DNA from: a virus
Direction: 5' to 3' (one strand)
Length of the DNA stretch: 35,281 nt
Virus record (IMG/VR): IMGVR_UViG_3300025674_000162
Coordinates: 1-35,281 of that record
Shown here: positions 2,995 to 34,334 of the stretch, in pieces
Layout: each line of letters starts with the position of its first letter
Position numbering within the stretch: position 1 is the stretch's first letter
Program-made: the position numbers and the translations under genes
Notes under the pieces: generated by a model
Seen by the model: only the letters and a program-made list of their open reading frames with translations
Databases searched by the model: none
Told to the model about the DNA's origin: nothing

Positions 2995-3416
2995 TAGACC
3001 TCCGTAGCTCCTGTGTAGTAATCAGTTGACTTGAGATGATTGTATGCCTGAGTCAGAATTGAATCAGAACTGTCAGGATCAATCATAAATTTAATATCAA
3101 ATGATGTACCATCAGTGTACAATCCATTCACGCCAACTTCAGTAGGAGAGTTACCAAAAGCACCAATAGCTTGTTTACCATTCTGTCTGGCTTCTTGTGA
3201 AGCATATACAAGAATGGAAATCCAACCAATGTATCCTGCTCTCCAATAGACTTCAGGACCACGATCACCATCAGTTAGACCATCTTCTCTTGATGAATCT
3301 GGTGGTGGAGCAATGTCCTGAAGTCTTTTTTCAGTTTTGACGTTGGTGATGAGGTGATAGGCATTATCTACCACCACACCAGTGCCAGGAATTTCAAAGT
3401 CTCTCAATAAGGCCAT
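2994..3416 (-). CDS. Hypothetical virion-associated protein (140 aa)
   Basis: Unrecognised 140-residue protein starting MALLRDFEIPGTGVVVDNAYHLITNV. It contains a Pro/Asp-rich stretch (35-50), then 'VYWRAGYIGWISILVYASQEARQNGKQAIGAF' with aromatic beta strands, and a polar C-terminus ending 'ATEV'. No signal peptide or membrane helix. The beginning (a strand, then 'NAYHLI') resembles small phage proteins that accompany tail fibres, but I cannot assign a family. It lies one base after the giant fibre gene, with GGGGAG 5 nt upstream of the ATG, and overlaps the 57-residue gene by one base, so all three are probably made from one transcript. A role in fibre attachment or assembly is inferred only from position. 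Confidence 0.6.
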   Translation of the reverse strand: MALLRDFEIPGTGVVVDNAYHLITNVKTEKRLQDIAPPPDSSREDGLTDGDRGPEVYWRAGYIGWISILVYASQEARQNGKQAIGAFGNSPTEVGVNGLYTDGTSFDIKFMIDPDSSDSILTQAYNHLKSTDYYTGATEV

Positions 3417-28028: not shown

Positions 28029-29315
28029 CTAGCTATTTAACAAGGTAACGTTCGTATTGATACCGTCGTTTCCATAATTGTCACGGATACAACGCAAGTT
28101 AGTAAAACACTCTACTCCTTTTTCACCAAATTTAATGGTGTGTCGTAAGTCTTTTATAAGATACACCCCACTTTCATGATTGTCAAGTCCATTGTTAGGA
28201 GATATCAAATTTAAGTTAATTGGAACACCTGCTTCCAACTCAAGGTTCATGGGTACGGTTACTCTTAGTGACTGAGAGAGAATCTGTTGATATTTGATAT
28301 TTGATTGACTCATCCATTTGTGAGGATTTCCACTGTCCGATTCTGGGTCAACAGTTCCATCTTGAGTCATAGTTCCACTGATAAATGGTTGGACATCAAC
28401 AACCGTTGGATTGTCCTCAATATTATAGGCCATTCTTACAAAATCTTCTGTTCCAAAACTATCAACCTTTTCAAAAGTTTCAGAGTATCTGTGGATTTCT
28501 TCTGGTTGAAATGTCTGTGGAAGAGTATATGGATTGAAGAACTTTGTATTATCACCATATCCACCCTTTCTCATCTTATAGATGATGTCTTGATTGTACT
28601 CCATGAATGGAGCCAAAACTTTATAGTTGTCAGAGTCATCATTTTCAGACACATACTCTCTCTGTGAGAATGACTGAACTACAGAGTTTTTGGCACCAGC
28701 AGCAATCGTGTCAATACTCTTGAAATTGTACCCAGATTTAGTTTCCCAGAACAAGAATCCTGCACGATCCCCACCACCAGTGGCCATGGATCTTCTGGCT
28801 AGCCAATAGATGGCCTTGAATGGTCTCCAATAGTTACCGAAGAATCCATAAGAATTTGCAGTCTTCTCAATGTCTGTTGGTTTGTCTGTAAAAGTTCTCA
28901 GAATGTTCGTGACATGTGTACTGATAGGAACTTTTGGATCATACCTTTGGAACAATCTGTTTGATTTGAATTCCTGTTTTATGTTCTCGGGTGTTGTCAA
29001 AGACAACTGAACTACACATTGAGTCGATGATGTTGATGGTTCACTCATACCACGAACAACCCAATCAGTAAACTCCACAGATCCACTATCATGGACAACA
29101 GTAATCTCAACTCGTTCAGAACCTCTGATTGGAAGTTCAGAAACAATCTTTTGATCACAAACAAGAACTACAGAGGCCGAAACAGCAGGTTCGAAGATAC
29201 TCTCAAAATAATCAAACTGCATGATACTGACCACGCCATCACCAATAGTGGCCGTCTTTCCGTTCAATCCGACAATTTTAAAGTCTGTGATTTTTACGTT
29301 CTTTATGTAACTCAT
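28029..29315 (-). CDS. Baseplate hub protein, gp27-like (428 aa)
   Basis: A 428-residue protein placed directly upstream of CP12 and gp5. The sequence starts 'MSYIKNVKITDFKIVGLNGK' and continues with beta strands and 'SASVVLVCDQKIVSELPIRGSERVEITV', 'LSLTTPENIKQEFKSNRLFQ', 'YKVLAPFMEYNQDIIYKMRKGGYG', and ends with 'YLIKDLRHTIKFGEKGVECFTNLRCIRD'. This is the pattern of hub proteins of the gp27/gpD type: two tube-like beta barrels with a C-terminal 'YxVxxVxHxI' strand. Length is near T4 gp27 (391). It overlaps the previous gene by ATGA. Identification rests on length, position beside gp5 and overall pattern, so gp27 is a probable rather than certain name. Confidence 0.55.
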   Translation of the reverse strand: MSYIKNVKITDFKIVGLNGKTATIGDGVVSIMQFDYFESIFEPAVSASVVLVCDQKIVSELPIRGSERVEITVVHDSGSVEFTDWVVRGMSEPSTSSTQCVVQLSLTTPENIKQEFKSNRLFQRYDPKVPISTHVTNILRTFTDKPTDIEKTANSYGFFGNYWRPFKAIYWLARRSMATGGGDRAGFLFWETKSGYNFKSIDTIAAGAKNSVVQSFSQREYVSENDDSDNYKVLAPFMEYNQDIIYKMRKGGYGDNTKFFNPYTLPQTFQPEEIHRYSETFEKVDSFGTEDFVRMAYNIEDNPTVVDVQPFISGTMTQDGTVDPESDSGNPHKWMSQSNIKYQQILSQSLRVTVPMNLELEAGVPINLNLISPNNGLDNHESGVYLIKDLRHTIKFGEKGVECFTNLRCIRDNYGNDGINTNVTLLNS

Positions 29316-30880
29316 GCCGTTGGTGGGTCTCTAAAGACAATGATGGGTTGAATAATAGCAGAAGCTTGTGGGCCAGGTACTGGACCCTGAACTGCTCCAG
29401 CATCATTTAAAACATTTTCTTGTATCCTCTTATCTAGGATCCTTTGGTATTCGATTCTTGTACGAGAGTCAGTTGCTTTTCTAATCATCATATAAAGTTG
29501 TTCATTAGAATATTCTTTATAAGCATCACTAAATTGTTTAACTCTTGTGGGTCTTCCACTTGGGTTGAAAATTTGTTCAATAATTCCACGAGTGCGAGTG
29601 GTAGATGACTGAGTAGGGGTCACATCAATCGTCAGTCCCTGTGCAGGTAAAAGTCGTTGAGTTGGTTGTGCTTTAGGAACTGGTTGTGGTCGCCCAAGAG
29701 GACCACCACCAGGAGAAGTTGGAACGATTACGTTCCCTGGTGATGGTAGTGGTACAGCAGGTTCTGGTTTCGGTGGCCTATAGGTTGGATCTGGTGTGGT
29801 AGTTGTTCTTCCTGGTTGAGTTGTTGGTCTTTGTGCGCCAGTAAAAGGACCCATCACAGCAAAAACTGTCTGCACTAGATTCATGATATCTGAGAATTTT
29901 TGTGTGTTTCTTGTGGTTTTTGCCCACTCAATACCATTATAGTATTTGAATTCTGGTCTTCTTCTGTTAACGAGTCCACCCACCACATTCATGGTGAGTA
30001 ATCCACCATCAGGAAGTTGAACAGCACCAGATCTCTGTGTTTTTCGGAAATAGTCACCCAAATATTGATAATATGGAGCCAACCATGCAGGATCAGCACC
30101 TTTTTCTTGTTGTCTTCTAGATCTTAATGCCAATTCAAACTGATACGCAGTCATCCTTGTAGGCACCAACTCCTTCTCTTCCTCTTTCTCTTTCTTTCGT
30201 CTACGACGAGGAATAGGAGGAGTTAGAGGAATTGGAGGTGGAGGAGGAGCAGGAAGAGGAATTGGATCTCTCCCAGGTTCGGCCTCTTTATCTGGTTCTG
30301 GTTCTTTTGGTTTTTCTGGTAATGGAACTGTCTCTGGGGCAGGTTCAACTTCAGGTTTTTCTTCCTCCCTTCTACGTCTTTCTTCCTCTTCCTTCTTTCG
30401 TTGTTCCTCTCGTTTTCTTTCAGCTTCCCTTTTGGCCTCTTCTTGTCTTCTTCTGTTTGCGTCAGGAGATCTCTCATCAGCGGGAACATCAACAACTGTT
30501 GGTTCCTCAACCTCGTCTTCTTTGATAATAGGTGGAGGAGGTGGAGGACCAACTGGTGGGCCCACCGGCCCAGGGGGAGCTCCTGGTCCAGGAGGGCCAG
30601 GAGGACGAGGGGGAATAGGTGGCAATCCAAAACCAGGAAAACCAGGGAGGCCAAAACCCTCCGAAGGATCAGGTAATCCAAAAATATACCCAGCAGTTCC
30701 AAGAACTCCAGGGATAATAGGAATTACTCTTCTAAGTCTCCTATTATTTTCAGAAATTCTTCCATAATCTCTTGCTCTCAATCTAGCATCATTTTTCATG
30801 ATACCAGCGAGTTTCCCTGTTGTCTGGGAGAGAGTATTTAAGGACTGTTTGAATCTATCTGTTTGGAAAACATCTAACAT
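29312..30880 (-). CDS. Proline-rich, highly charged hub-operon protein (522 aa)
   Basis: Unrecognised protein with strong compositional bias. Residues 1-70 are a basic helix and a hydrophobic patch (VIPIIPGVLGTAGYIFGLP); 71-120 are Pro/Gly-rich (PPGPPGPGAPPGPVGPP); 143-175 form a Lys/Arg/Glu helix (REAERKREEQRKKEEEERRR); 176-240 are Pro/Glu-rich, ending in an RRRRKKEKEEEKE cluster. About 241-340 look folded ('MTAYQFELALRSRRQQE', 'GGLLTMNVVGGLVNRRRPEF'), 360-440 are again Pro-rich, and the C-terminus (FSDAYKEYSNEQLYMMIRKA) is helical. It lies between the lysozyme-like and gp27-like genes, where T4 has genes 28/29. A flexible hub or tape-measure-related role is possible; nothing in it proves this. 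Confidence 0.6.
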   Translation of the reverse strand: MLDVFQTDRFKQSLNTLSQTTGKLAGIMKNDARLRARDYGRISENNRRLRRVIPIIPGVLGTAGYIFGLPDPSEGFGLPGFPGFGLPPIPPRPPGPPGPGAPPGPVGPPVGPPPPPPIIKEDEVEEPTVVDVPADERSPDANRRRQEEAKREAERKREEQRKKEEEERRRREEEKPEVEPAPETVPLPEKPKEPEPDKEAEPGRDPIPLPAPPPPPIPLTPPIPRRRRKKEKEEEKELVPTRMTAYQFELALRSRRQQEKGADPAWLAPYYQYLGDYFRKTQRSGAVQLPDGGLLTMNVVGGLVNRRRPEFKYYNGIEWAKTTRNTQKFSDIMNLVQTVFAVMGPFTGAQRPTTQPGRTTTTPDPTYRPPKPEPAVPLPSPGNVIVPTSPGGGPLGRPQPVPKAQPTQRLLPAQGLTIDVTPTQSSTTRTRGIIEQIFNPSGRPTRVKQFSDAYKEYSNEQLYMMIRKATDSRTRIEYQRILDKRIQENVLNDAGAVQGPVPGPQASAIIQPIIVFRDPPTA

Positions 30881-30881
30881 A

Positions 30882-32363
30882 TTATCCTACTCCGATTCCC
30901 AGAAGAGGTTCATACACAGACCTTCCAAGAGAAGGATCCATAACAGCAGAAGCAACATCAAAACCAGGAGACATTCCAGCACCAAGTTCTTTGTTGGCCT
31001 TCTTGGTTGTTTGATCAATGTAAATTGGTGGCAAATATGAGATTACATCACCTATTTTGTATCCACCACCAGCAGGAGCTCCTGGTTTAGATGCATCAGG
31101 CATCACAAAATTAACCTTTTGAGTTTGCATTTTTTTCAATCTCTCATTATACATTCTCAAAGACTCTTCATGAGTTCTAGTTGTTTGTCCATAATACGGA
31201 CCCAAACCAGACCATTCGGGATTTAATTTTCGAATATCTTCAATTGTAAGTGGTTTATTTAAATCAACTCCCCGTTTTTTAGCCGCAATGGCAATCATCA
31301 ACTGAACTTGTTTTGCTTCAGTAAATTTGGTTGTAGCAGGATCCTCTCCAAGATATGTTCTTAATGCATTTTCTGGTTCCATGAACTGACCAACACCAAC
31401 CGCGGCAGATTGGTCCCACTTTCCTTTTTGAGCATTCCAGAATTTACCTTTCCCCTCTTTTAAAAATTGTCTTTGAAGATCAGCAACTTCATTAAAGGTT
31501 TTACCTTCTATGTTACCGTATGGTTGGCCTCCACCAAAGAAGGTACTTGCACCAGCCTTTCCTGTCGTTCCTTCAACATCTCTTATCAAAGAAATTGCAG
31601 CCTTAGCTTCGGGAGTTTCTGCCCCTGGTGATGGAATCAAAGCACCACCAGTATCGGGAGTTGGTTCTGGTTCTCCAAAGAAACTACCTATACCAGGAAT
31701 ATTACGCAAGAACTCCATAATCTGAGATTCCATCTGATCATATTTTTTCTTAAGTTGATCTATGGTTTGAAGTGCAGCAAAACCAAGCAATCCCTTTCCT
31801 AATTCTTTTCCAGCCCTTCTCAATCTTCCACCAGCTCTTTGTACTGGAGCACCAGCAGTTCCTACCAATTTAGAAAAGAAACCACGTCTTCTTGATGCTC
31901 TACGTTGAGATCTTGCAGCACCTCTTTGTGCAAGTCTTTCTCTTTGAGACTGAATTACGGACTGACGATATTCAGCATCTGATCTAACGTTCTGTTCCAT
32001 TGCAAGAGCAATGGCCGCAACGTTTTGATTGATTCTTTCAATCTCTCTTACAATATACTCATTCTCACCAACTACCGATGGTCCAGGTCCAGCAGGAACA
32101 AGTTGTGGAGCAACTGGAGCTTGTGGTGGTAAAGCAGTTTCTGTTTGATCTACTAATGGATCTGGTACAACAATATCAGGAGCATCATCAGATCCTTTTG
32201 CAAACAGTCTTGGGTCTGGTTCATAACCCTCAAGGAAGGCTCTTGCAGCAAGTCTTTTACGATTTTCTCTATCCCCTAAACGATCATCAGCAGCACCCTG
32301 ACGAACCTTGTTTACGGCTTGAAGTTTTAGAAAATTGATAAAACCTTGTACAAGTGCTCCCAT
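30882..32363 (-). CDS. Hub-associated protein with lysozyme-like domain (493 aa)
   Basis: Residues 1-160 are basic helices and a Pro-rich linker; 150-230 include 'RSQRRASRRRGFFSKLVG' and a helix running to 'PGIGSFFGEP'. Residues about 254-366 look like a lysozyme/muramidase domain of the lambda-lysozyme type: 'AAISLIRDVEGTTG' with E264 as the candidate catalytic acid, 'FFGGGQPYGNIEGKTFNEVADL', then 'SAAVGVGQFMEPENALRTYL' (like the SSAAGRYQF block) and 'EAKQVQLMIAIAAKKRG'. It would locally open host peptidoglycan during tail penetration, the task of the gp5 lysozyme domain in T4, which gp5 of this phage lacks. The C-terminus is extended and Gly-rich. The ATG overlaps the gp51-like stop (TAATG). 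The domain call is by motif only. Confidence 0.6.
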   Translation of the reverse strand: MGALVQGFINFLKLQAVNKVRQGAADDRLGDRENRKRLAARAFLEGYEPDPRLFAKGSDDAPDIVVPDPLVDQTETALPPQAPVAPQLVPAGPGPSVVGENEYIVREIERINQNVAAIALAMEQNVRSDAEYRQSVIQSQRERLAQRGAARSQRRASRRRGFFSKLVGTAGAPVQRAGGRLRRAGKELGKGLLGFAALQTIDQLKKKYDQMESQIMEFLRNIPGIGSFFGEPEPTPDTGGALIPSPGAETPEAKAAISLIRDVEGTTGKAGASTFFGGGQPYGNIEGKTFNEVADLQRQFLKEGKGKFWNAQKGKWDQSAAVGVGQFMEPENALRTYLGEDPATTKFTEAKQVQLMIAIAAKKRGVDLNKPLTIEDIRKLNPEWSGLGPYYGQTTRTHEESLRMYNERLKKMQTQKVNFVMPDASKPGAPAGGGYKIGDVISYLPPIYIDQTTKKANKELGAGMSPGFDVASAVMDPSLGRSVYEPLLGIGVG

Positions 32364-32548
32364 TACCCGCCGAGACCGTATTCCTGTTGTTGTTTAAGTT
32401 TCTCTGCTTCAAGATAATTTCTTAAGAGAGCCACATAAATGTCTCTCTCAAAGGGCATCATGTTTTCAATCTCAGTCAAAGAGTATTTATGGTACTGCAT
32501 CAAGGAAAAAGTAAGTTCATAGTATGACTCAGCACTCATGTGAGCCAT
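32363..32548 (-). CDS. gp51-like hub assembly frame, probably the -1 frameshift partner of gp26
   Basis: A short helical frame: 'ESYYELTFSLMQYHKYSLTE', 'IENMMPFERDIYVALLRNYLEA' and a Gln-rich, Gly-ending tail. Its place right after gp26 is that of the hub assembly gene called gp51 in cyanomyoviruses (T4 gp51 is much longer), and the 'MPFERDIYVALL' helix recalls the T part of GT tail assembly chaperones. Independent starts are TTG 32554, ATG 32548 or ATG 32539; none has a Shine-Dalgarno at a usable distance. The frame is open back through the gp26 slippery site, so the product is more likely made as a gp26-gp51 fusion of about 299 residues. The start given is the first ATG. Confidence 0.6.
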   Translation of the reverse strand: MAHMSAESYYELTFSLMQYHKYSLTEIENMMPFERDIYVALLRNYLEAEKLKQQQEYGLGG

Positions 32549-32563
32549 ACTCAAGCGAAAAAA
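32522..32563 (-). promoter_or_regulatory. Predicted programmed -1 ribosomal frameshift signal
   Basis: Slippery heptamer T TTT TTC (32563-32557) in the gp26 frame (AGT TTT TTC GCT TGA), then a 6-nt spacer GCTTGA, then a 10-bp stem GTATGGCTCA/TGAGTCATAC (32541-32550 with 32522-32531, one G-U pair, 9-nt loop). An extra A-U pair (32551 with 32521) would make 11 bp and a 5-nt spacer. A -1 slip continues as FFRLSMAHMSAES into the gp51-like frame. Confidence 0.75.
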
Positions 32564-33261
32564 CTTGAGAGCCCCTCTAGAACAACTTCGTTTTCAACCC
32601 CAGTGTTGGGATTGGTTACCTTGAACGTATGTGAAAGTTTGGGCATGGTGTCAAAGAAGTTTTCAATTTCTCTGAACTGAGCACTATTGAACTGTTCAAG
32701 GAACTTGATCATTTCTTTCTCAGTGAAATCATCATATGCAGTTTCATCATCATAAACCATGTCAACACAAGCGGCCACCATCTTGAAGACATCTTGTTCT
32801 TCATCTTTGAAGTCAAAGTTGTTATTGATGAATTGATCCAGAGAAGGATACTTCATTCTCAACTTATATCGACCATCAATGTCAACGTCGATACTGTGAT
32901 TTTCTTGTTTTACAACTTGAACCTCATTGATGTCAATCTCCACAGGGACTTGTGTCTCCCCGCCATCATCGGGACAGTTGACAAGAACCTTAACAGTCTC
33001 ACCAACAGACCTTGCACGAATGTTCAAAAAGAGATATTCAATATCAAAGGTAGGTAGTTGATCTACCTTGATACCTCTGGTGATAATACAGGCCTTCAAT
33101 ACATCCTTAATAGCTCTGGTGATGTCAGTAGTATCACCAGTCTCTAATGCCAGAATGAGAACCTTTTCCTCCTTAACAAGAAAAGGACGATACTTAATCT
33201 TTTTTCCGTTTGATGGTAAAGTCAGTTCAAACGAAGGAGTCGAAATTGTTGGTAAAGGCAT
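32551..33261 (-). CDS. gp26: Baseplate hub assembly protein gp26 (T4_baseplate family)
   Basis: A 236-residue protein with the layout of T4 gp26-type hub assembly proteins: N-terminal 'FELTLPSNGKKIKYRPFLVK' followed by 'EEKVLILALETGD', then 'DVLKACI', 'LPTFDIEYLFLNIRARSVGE', a beta region, and an acidic helical half 'YPSLDQFINNNFDFKDEEQD', 'FTEKEMIKFLEQFNSAQFRE', 'FFDTMPKLSHTFKV'. The 'xPFxVKEEKxLLxA' block is the family hallmark. It acts in assembling the central hub of the baseplate and is not retained as a large structural part. A CTAAATAA late core lies 19 nt before the ATG. Its last codons contain a slippery heptamer and it ends in TGA within the start region of the gp51-like frame. Confidence 0.7.
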   Translation of the reverse strand: MPLPTISTPSFELTLPSNGKKIKYRPFLVKEEKVLILALETGDTTDITRAIKDVLKACIITRGIKVDQLPTFDIEYLFLNIRARSVGETVKVLVNCPDDGGETQVPVEIDINEVQVVKQENHSIDVDIDGRYKLRMKYPSLDQFINNNFDFKDEEQDVFKMVAACVDMVYDDETAYDDFTEKEMIKFLEQFNSAQFREIENFFDTMPKLSHTFKVTNPNTGVENEVVLEGLSSFFA

Positions 33262-33280: not shown

Positions 33281-33288
33281 TTATTTAG
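33281..33288 (-). promoter_or_regulatory. T4-type late promoter core CTAAATAA over a stop codon
   Basis: Minus strand TTCTAAATAACAATAC; the TAA is the stop codon of the tail-tube initiator gene and the core is 19 nt from the gp26 ATG. Confidence 0.6.
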
Positions 33289-34334
33289 AAGGAACCTTTA
33301 TAGTTGTATTGGTTTCTTGCTTTATCCAAAAGTTGTTGTCTCTGTGCAGAACCAGGTGGATATTCTTCTCTAGCCTGTTGTAGAATTGCATCCTGACTCT
33401 TAAGATTAGAAGGAGCTCTATTTCTATTATCGATCATCTGTTGGTTTGAAAGAGCCCAAATCGCAAGATCTTCACGAAGTCTATCACCACCAGACTCTGT
33501 TGGAAGTTCTCGTCCCTGGTCAATCGGTGGTTGTGGTCCTGTTTCGGTATCGTTATTTCCAGTGTCTACATCTGGTGTTGTGGGTTTAACTTTACCACTA
33601 AAATCACCACTGACTGCACTATTATTAAACTCAGTGATACCTCTAATTGTATCACCAGCAAGTGGTTTCCTAGGATAAGTTACTTCACTCACAATATAAC
33701 GATCATATCTAAAAGTAACATTGCATCTGAGAATGTTCATTCCCTGATAACTTACAGGAGTTGATGCAAGAGAAAGAGGCCATGCACGGAAGAATCTATA
33801 ACTGATTTGATCTCTATCCGAAGTCAAACCATTCGCAAATCCAATCTCTCTTATAGATCCTTTCAGATCCTTATTGAACTTTGTGATAACCATCTCACAC
33901 TTGTAATCGTCTGGATAGTTAAATTTCATGATTTGATTTTTGGCCACACCTAGTTCAACAGAACTATAAAGAGGATTGATAAATTGAATCCAAGATTCAA
34001 AAAATCTCAAAACTTCATAGTTTCTATCAATATAAAAACTAAAAGTTACATCATCATAGATTCGACTAAAGGCATTTCTTTCCGTAATACCTTGTCTATC
34101 TCCAGCAACTTCAATATCACCAAAAGATGAGCCAGGAAGAACTGCATCCGCAGCATATAGTCCAAGATCTTCAGTTAAAAATCTTCTATCAATTCCAAGT
34201 CTTATAGCTTCGTTACTAACACTATCATTTAGAGAGAAAAATACCTGATATTCATTATCAAGTGCAACGGTTTGAAAACGACTTCGTAGGTCGTCTATCT
34301 TATATCGTCCACCACGAAATCTGTTAACCGCCAT
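33285..34334 (-). CDS. Baseplate tail-tube initiator/cap protein (gp54/gp48 type, 349 aa)
   Basis: Residues about 15-230 show the tail-tube fold shared by T4 gp19, gp48 and gp54: 'NEYQVFFSLN', 'GDIEVAGDRQGITERNAFSR', 'IYDDVTFSFYIDRNYEVLRF', 'FESWIQFINPLY', 'FNYPDDYKCEMVITKFNKDL', 'YRFFRAWPLSLASTPVSYQG' and 'CNVTFRYDRYIV'. In gp48/gp54 this domain caps the hub and starts tail-tube polymerisation. The C-terminal 110 residues are a Pro/Thr/Asp-rich linker and a short helix ('AILQQAREEYPPGSAQRQQLL'). T4 gp54 has 320 and gp48 364 residues, so length does not separate them. It is the first leftward gene of the hub operon and has its own CTAAATAA core 32 nt upstream. I leave the symbol open. Confidence 0.6.
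   Translation of the reverse strand: MAVNRFRGGRYKIDDLRSRFQTVALDNEYQVFFSLNDSVSNEAIRLGIDRRFLTEDLGLYAADAVLPGSSFGDIEVAGDRQGITERNAFSRIYDDVTFSFYIDRNYEVLRFFESWIQFINPLYSSVELGVAKNQIMKFNYPDDYKCEMVITKFNKDLKGSIREIGFANGLTSDRDQISYRFFRAWPLSLASTPVSYQGMNILRCNVTFRYDRYIVSEVTYPRKPLAGDTIRGITEFNNSAVSGDFSGKVKPTTPDVDTGNNDTETGPQPPIDQGRELPTESGGDRLREDLAIWALSNQQMIDNRNRAPSNLKSQDAILQQAREEYPPGSAQRQQLLDKARNQYNYKGSF

Follow-up and report, generated by a model that had tools for sequence, protein, structure and literature searches.

The gp26/gp51 junction

The window studied here is the whole 35,281-nucleotide stretch of IMG/VR virus record IMGVR_UViG_3300025674_000162, from a virus of marine cyanobacteria, and our subject is the junction between two of its genes, gp26 and gp51, both on the minus strand of the sequence as presented. 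On that strand the 3′ end of gp26 reads CTC TCA AGT TTT TTC GCT TGA. It contains the heptamer T TTT TTC in the X XXY YYZ phase of a slippery sequence, separated by the 5-nt spacer GCTTG (32556..32552) from a stem-loop, and on the upstream side lies a Shine–Dalgarno (SD)-like AGAGGGG (Table 1). The −1 frame is open past the gp26 stop, and a −1 slip at the heptamer joins the 63-codon open reading frame (ORF) of gp51. The predicted fusion comprises 299 amino acids and has the C-terminal part ...LSSFFRLSMAHMSAESYYELTF...GLGG; its tryptic junction is predicted to fall between a peptide ending ...VVLEGLSSFFR and LSMAHMSAESYYELTFSLMQYHK.

An earlier note on this DNA had described such a cassette from the letters alone. 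The heptamer, at 32563..32557, has the phase that it gave, the spacer and stem that it put at 5–6 nt and 10–11 bp are 5 nt and 11 bp, and the frame relation yields both the fusion of about 299 residues and the 236-residue gp26 beside it. The note had also seen no SD sequence belonging to the gp51 ORF, and within the window we likewise see none at a suitable spacing. Its account of heptamer, spacer and stem was thus accurate, while the SD-like element upstream had been overlooked.

We conclude that the junction is very probably a cassette for −1 programmed ribosomal frameshifting, of the type found in tail assembly chaperone (TAC) genes, from which a short and a long chaperone would be made. 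Most ribosomes would translate gp26 to its own stop, giving the TAC-N-like protein of 236 amino acids. The GAGGG of the SD-like element would pair with 16S rRNA upstream of T TTT TTC, the stem-loop lying downstream, and a fraction of the ribosomes would slip one base back at the heptamer, pass the gp26 stop and add 64 residues to generate the TAC-NC-like gp26–gp51 fusion. The two forms would be needed in unequal amounts, chaperoning the tape measure and bringing in the tail tube in the manner of lambda gpG and gpGT. The slippage, its efficiency and the chaperone role of the products are what we infer from the elements of the sequence.

Conservation of the heptamer and its flanking elements

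Relatives were gathered by scanning viral contigs. A first scan of IMG/VR contigs gave 80 loci whose gp26 is 56–89% identical to that of the window, which together with the window make up 81 close loci. Two further scans, with the gp26 of Methylophilales phage Melnitz-3 and of Sinorhizobium phage phiM12 as queries, extended the set to relatives of about 30% identity, so that 229 loci with enough sequence were available, 201 of them unique. The counts are descriptive: members of one clade cannot be treated as independent, and a few contigs came in two copies that differ in their flanks. Scans of viral contigs with the gp26 of Vibrio phages D525 and 1.255 found no further relatives.

An in-frame T TTT TTN is present at the end of gp26 in all 229 loci. 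The last base of the heptamer among the unique loci is C in 154, T in 25, A in 21 and G in one, and the gp26 stop follows 0, 1, 2, 3 or 8 codons further on. Elsewhere in gp26 in-frame T6N heptamers occur at 16 of 46,880 codon positions. All the close loci share the arrangement NNT TTT TTC NNN stop, with the −1 frame leading into the gp51 domain, and that frame is likewise open into the domain in those loci that were read through. Thus the heptamer and frame relation that the earlier note suggested seeking in relatives are conserved, and the site is a real conserved feature of these sequences.

The T run is not explained by the protein that it encodes. The preceding codon may specify Ser, Asn, Asp, Ala, Thr or His, yet its third base is T without exception, and the last codon of the heptamer is Phe or Leu across the relatives; the protein varies and the T run stays. 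In the close loci the Phe–Phe pair is always written TTT TTC (81/81), while TTC accounts for 27% of the Phe codons elsewhere. A conserved Phe–Phe pair alone is ruled out as the cause of the T run by this invariance and by the change from Phe to Leu with all six T kept. Selection at the heptamer therefore acts, as judged from codon usage, on the nucleotides and not on the protein.

The same site is found in annotated genomes. It is present in the cyanophages P-SSM2, S-PRM1, S-PM2 and S-H34, in Melnitz-3, phiM12, pf16, Stenotrophomonas phage Marzo and Rhizobium phage LG08, and in Aeromonas phage phiAS5, Vibrio phage D525, Acinetobacter phage SH-Ab 15599 and the jumbo phage Atu_ph07. In Pseudoalteromonas phage XG4, whose record carries no annotation, it takes the form T TTT TTA. 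The heptamer extends over phages of cyanobacteria, Methylophilales, rhizobia, Pseudomonas, Stenotrophomonas and Aeromonas, together with one phage of the Ackermannviridae.

The SD-like element is almost as widespread. The motif is present in 193 of the 201 unique loci and in 12.4% of control windows. It overlies a conserved EGL sequence, the Glu codon of which is GAG in 73 of the 81 close loci, GAG making up 28% of the Glu codons elsewhere in gp26. The choice of GAG creates GGAGGG, AGAGGG or TGAGGG at a distance of 9 nt from the heptamer; in the window these 9 nt separate AGAGGG from T TTT TTC. The element is a likely 5′ stimulator.

The stem of the window includes one G–U pair among its 11 bp. 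Folded alone it has a free energy of −15.0 kcal/mol, with z = −3.6 against dinucleotide shuffles; against synonymous recoding of the first 45 nt downstream, the window has z = −3.7. Over 154 unique sequences the first 45 nt downstream have a mean minimum free energy (MFE) of −9.1 kcal/mol, compared with −4.5 kcal/mol after synonymous recoding (mean z −1.9), and thus they fold better than the protein requires. Windows farther along in the same sequences have mean z values of −0.44, −0.21, +0.22 and −0.6. Of 71 unique close loci, 49 form at least eight of the 11 pairs, and other relatives form different stems. Among the close loci 620 cells are paired, against 590 ± 5 when the 3′ partners are dealt out anew, and one stem pair exchanges T–A for A–T among relatives. 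We regard the stem as the likely 3′ stimulator, a structure that the folding supports, if not in all relatives.

A different route past the gp26 stop would be slippage in transcription: RNA polymerase would lose register on the T run, and the resulting mRNAs, a base longer or shorter, would be read in a new frame. The signal is indeed a homopolymer run, and in some loci it is TTTTTTT. However, six T are short for efficient polymerase slippage, and the heptamer is TTTTTTC, no longer T run, in 154 of the 201 unique loci. A heptamer in phase with the codons, preceded at about 9 nt by an SD-like element and followed at 5 nt by a stem, has the features of ribosomal frameshifting, and we give transcriptional slippage almost no credence.

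The start of gp51 and the surrounding genes

A number of observations weigh against a frameshift cassette for chaperones at this position, and are best considered together. When the stem is placed in 141 nt of window context the MFE favours a competing fold; the centroid retains the 11-bp stem. The stem is not universal, as fewer than eight of its pairs form in 22 of the 71 unique close loci, and some distant loci fold weakly. The compensatory change that the earlier note proposed to look for is present, but covariation within the stem class is mainly confined to one pair and may reflect few events. An AlphaFold2 model of gp26 (predicted local distance difference test score, pLDDT, 89) gave nothing significant in a Foldseek search, the best chaperone match being weak (HK97 TAC 2ob9, E 1.8, probability 0.25). 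Vibrio phages 1.255.O, K362 and YC lack the heptamer, having a TAATG stop–start overlap in its place. Lastly, the window and 107 of the 201 loci have an ATG within the first 17 codons of the −1 frame, so that a stand-alone gp51 could be made.

This last point belongs to a different explanation, in which gp51 is a small protein in its own right, its translation being coupled to that of gp26 or re-initiated at its ATG, and the poly-T is merely a conserved Phe–Phe end. The ATG stands at codon 4 of the −1 ORF in the window and in most of its close relatives (67/81), it is the start used by the annotators of P-SSM2 and S-PM2, and the three Vibrio phages have their TAATG overlap instead of the heptamer. 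In the window the ATG at 32548 begins two bases past the gp26 stop, and coupled re-initiation is thus possible in this phage. Against this, 49 of the 201 loci offer no ATG, GTG or TTG among the opening 17 codons of the −1 frame, and a gp51 initiated by itself would there have a truncated domain. Neither the 81 invariant TTT TTC pairs nor the change from Phe to Leu with T6 kept is explained by protein conservation, the window has no SD sequence at a useful distance from the gp51 ATG, and the T4 counterpart of gp51 is a true fusion of N- and C-terminal parts. We therefore consider a gp51 made only as a separate protein very unlikely, and retain programmed frameshifting as the explanation of the junction. 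In the three Vibrio phages the −1 frame has stayed open around the junction, pointing to a possible switch to another mechanism; they may have changed from frameshifting to a coupled start.

The annotation of gp51 is uneven. It is shortened to 47 amino acids in Melnitz-3 (3250–3393 of the stretch examined) and lacks annotation in S-PRM1 (after 3211 of the stretch examined), as expected if gp51 had no start of its own, or if it had been overlooked. Of the 16 annotated non-T4 records examined, not one marks the junction as a joined gene. Taken with the S-PRM1 and Melnitz-3 cases, this indicates that the annotation of gp51 should be revised in many genomes.

The gene order is tail tube–gp26–gp51, and the position of the tail tube gene just upstream of gp26 is that expected for a tail chaperone locus. 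For the two long ORFs that follow gp51, NCBIfam gave no match and PHROGs none above chance; one of them may be the tape measure gene, and in the annotation of phiM12 a tape-measure-like gene lies two genes past gp51. No match to gp26 came from NCBIfam, nor from a profile search against PDB sequences. Codon 3 of gp26 (Leu, 33253–33255, minus strand) is TTA in all 81 close loci, an invariance equal to that of the slippery codons, and is perhaps a signal of the start region.

Table 1. Features of the gp26/gp51 locus, in coordinates of the window.
Feature	Position	Strand	Evidence
gp26, zero-frame product, TAC-N-like, 236 aa	32551–33261	minus	Pfam PF12322 T4_baseplate, 1.8e-73; phrog_150 baseplate hub, 7.2e-80
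gp26 stop TGA, one codon past the heptamer	32551–32553	minus	Sequence
SD-like AGAGGGG within the gp26 frame, likely 5′ stimulator	32572–32578	minus	193/201 unique loci; 12.4% of control windows
Slippery heptamer T TTT TTC, X XXY YYZ phase	32557–32563	minus	Sequence; in-frame T TTT TTN in 229/229 loci
11-bp stem AGTATGGCTCA (32551..32541)/TGAGTCATACT (32531..32521), 9-nt loop, likely 3′ stimulator	32521–32551	minus	Synonymous-codon null, z = −3.7
−1 frame region, predicted C-terminal domain of the fusion, 64 codons + stop, entry CGC 32557	32363–32557	minus	Homology to T4 gp51 residues 207–245; phrog_634, 1.3e-25
gp51 ORF as listed, 63 codons	32363–32554	minus	ORF list
Possible stand-alone gp51, 61 aa, from ATG 32548	32363–32548	minus	ATG two bases past the gp26 stop; no SD at the usual distance
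Tail tube protein gene, directly upstream of gp26	33285–34334	minus	phrog_45 tail tube, 1.1e-36; PF23849 Phage_TTP_2, 2.1e-10
Two long ORFs after gp51	29312–30880 and 30882–32363	minus	No family match

Tail chaperones of T4 and other phages

Phage T4 provides an instructive comparison. It has two PF12322 proteins, gp26 (208 aa) and gp51 (249 aa), encoded on opposite strands, while just one PF12322 gene is present in each of 17 other phages. In T4 gp51 the PF12322 domain extends over residues 1–201, followed by the domain of cyanophage gp51 over residues 207–245. Thus gp26 and gp51 sequence is continuous in one T4 gene, and T4 gp51 is the long form, made without interruption, with T4 gp26 as the short counterpart. 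The predicted cyanophage fusion and short form correspond to these two members of the same family, short and long products being predicted from the frames in the cyanophage and from separate genes in T4. The same cassette cannot be working in T4, where the genes are divergent and the end of gp26 encodes Phe–Phe as TTC TTT, which is not slippery. The earlier note's mention of a T4-type pair thus needs the correction that the pair of T4 itself is not frameshifted. Its suggestion that frameshifting explains why cyanophage gp51 is so short is borne out by the N+C form of T4 gp51, and its analogy with tail chaperones is supported by the short and long forms and by the tail tube neighbour.

The kind of system is familiar. 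In the −1 frameshift site of Escherichia coli dnaX the heptamer A AAA AAG is preceded at about 10 nt by an SD-like sequence and followed at about 5 nt by a stem-loop. The junction shares this three-part layout, differing in the heptamer and in that dnaX is a DNA polymerase gene. Lambda G/GT also stands next to the tail tube gene, and its slippery heptamer is G GGA AAG. Xu, Hendrix and Duda (2004) reportedly described a wider set of tail chaperone frameshifts of lambda type, and Vladimirov, Gautam and Davidson (2022, Virology 566:9–15) are said to have named the TAC genes of T4-like phages.

Lambda produces a short gpG and a long N+C gpGT (PMC5009743). The complementarity of short and long forms and the place beside the tail tube gene fit this scheme; the phages studied here differ in having T TTT TTN, an SD-like element and a stem, and a gp26 of 236 amino acids with PF12322. 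In the PRFect paper (PMC10885494), Vladimirov et al. 2022 is cited for T4-like phages in which a short TAC gene and a longer, fused one take the place of frameshifting. PMC12846349 cites the same work for poly-T −1 slippery sequences in the TAC-N genes of T4-like phages. It also proposes −1 frameshifting in the TAC genes of Vandenendeviridae and Andersonviridae, at an invariant GTTTTT ending TAC-N and with a conserved −1 frame. These are other phage families, and the section read mentions no SD-like element or stem.

We found no description of a cyanophage gp26/gp51 frameshift in the literature searched, a search that did not cover Vladimirov et al. 2022. Given the citation of that work for poly-T signals in PMC12846349, the core of the finding is probably published, and the earlier note's statement that none was known for the T4-type gp26/gp51 is probably outdated. 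Thus the junction is well supported as a frameshift site by its sequence, it is ordinary in kind, and this instance or close relatives of it have probably been noted before. The present analysis adds the breadth of relatives, the upstream SD-like element and the loci lacking a start codon.

A more general proposal can be made only tentatively, and we hold it to be rather doubtful: that the three-part dnaX-like cassette is the ancestral and general route to the long chaperone in T4-related phages outside the Tevenvirinae, that T4-like coliphages replaced it by gene duplication, and that its extent and its upstream element have gone unreported. The site itself would bring T4-type marine phages into the company of those making two tail chaperones from one gene. 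The same need for two forms would then be met in two ways, by frameshifting in the cyanophages and their relatives, and by gene duplication in T4.
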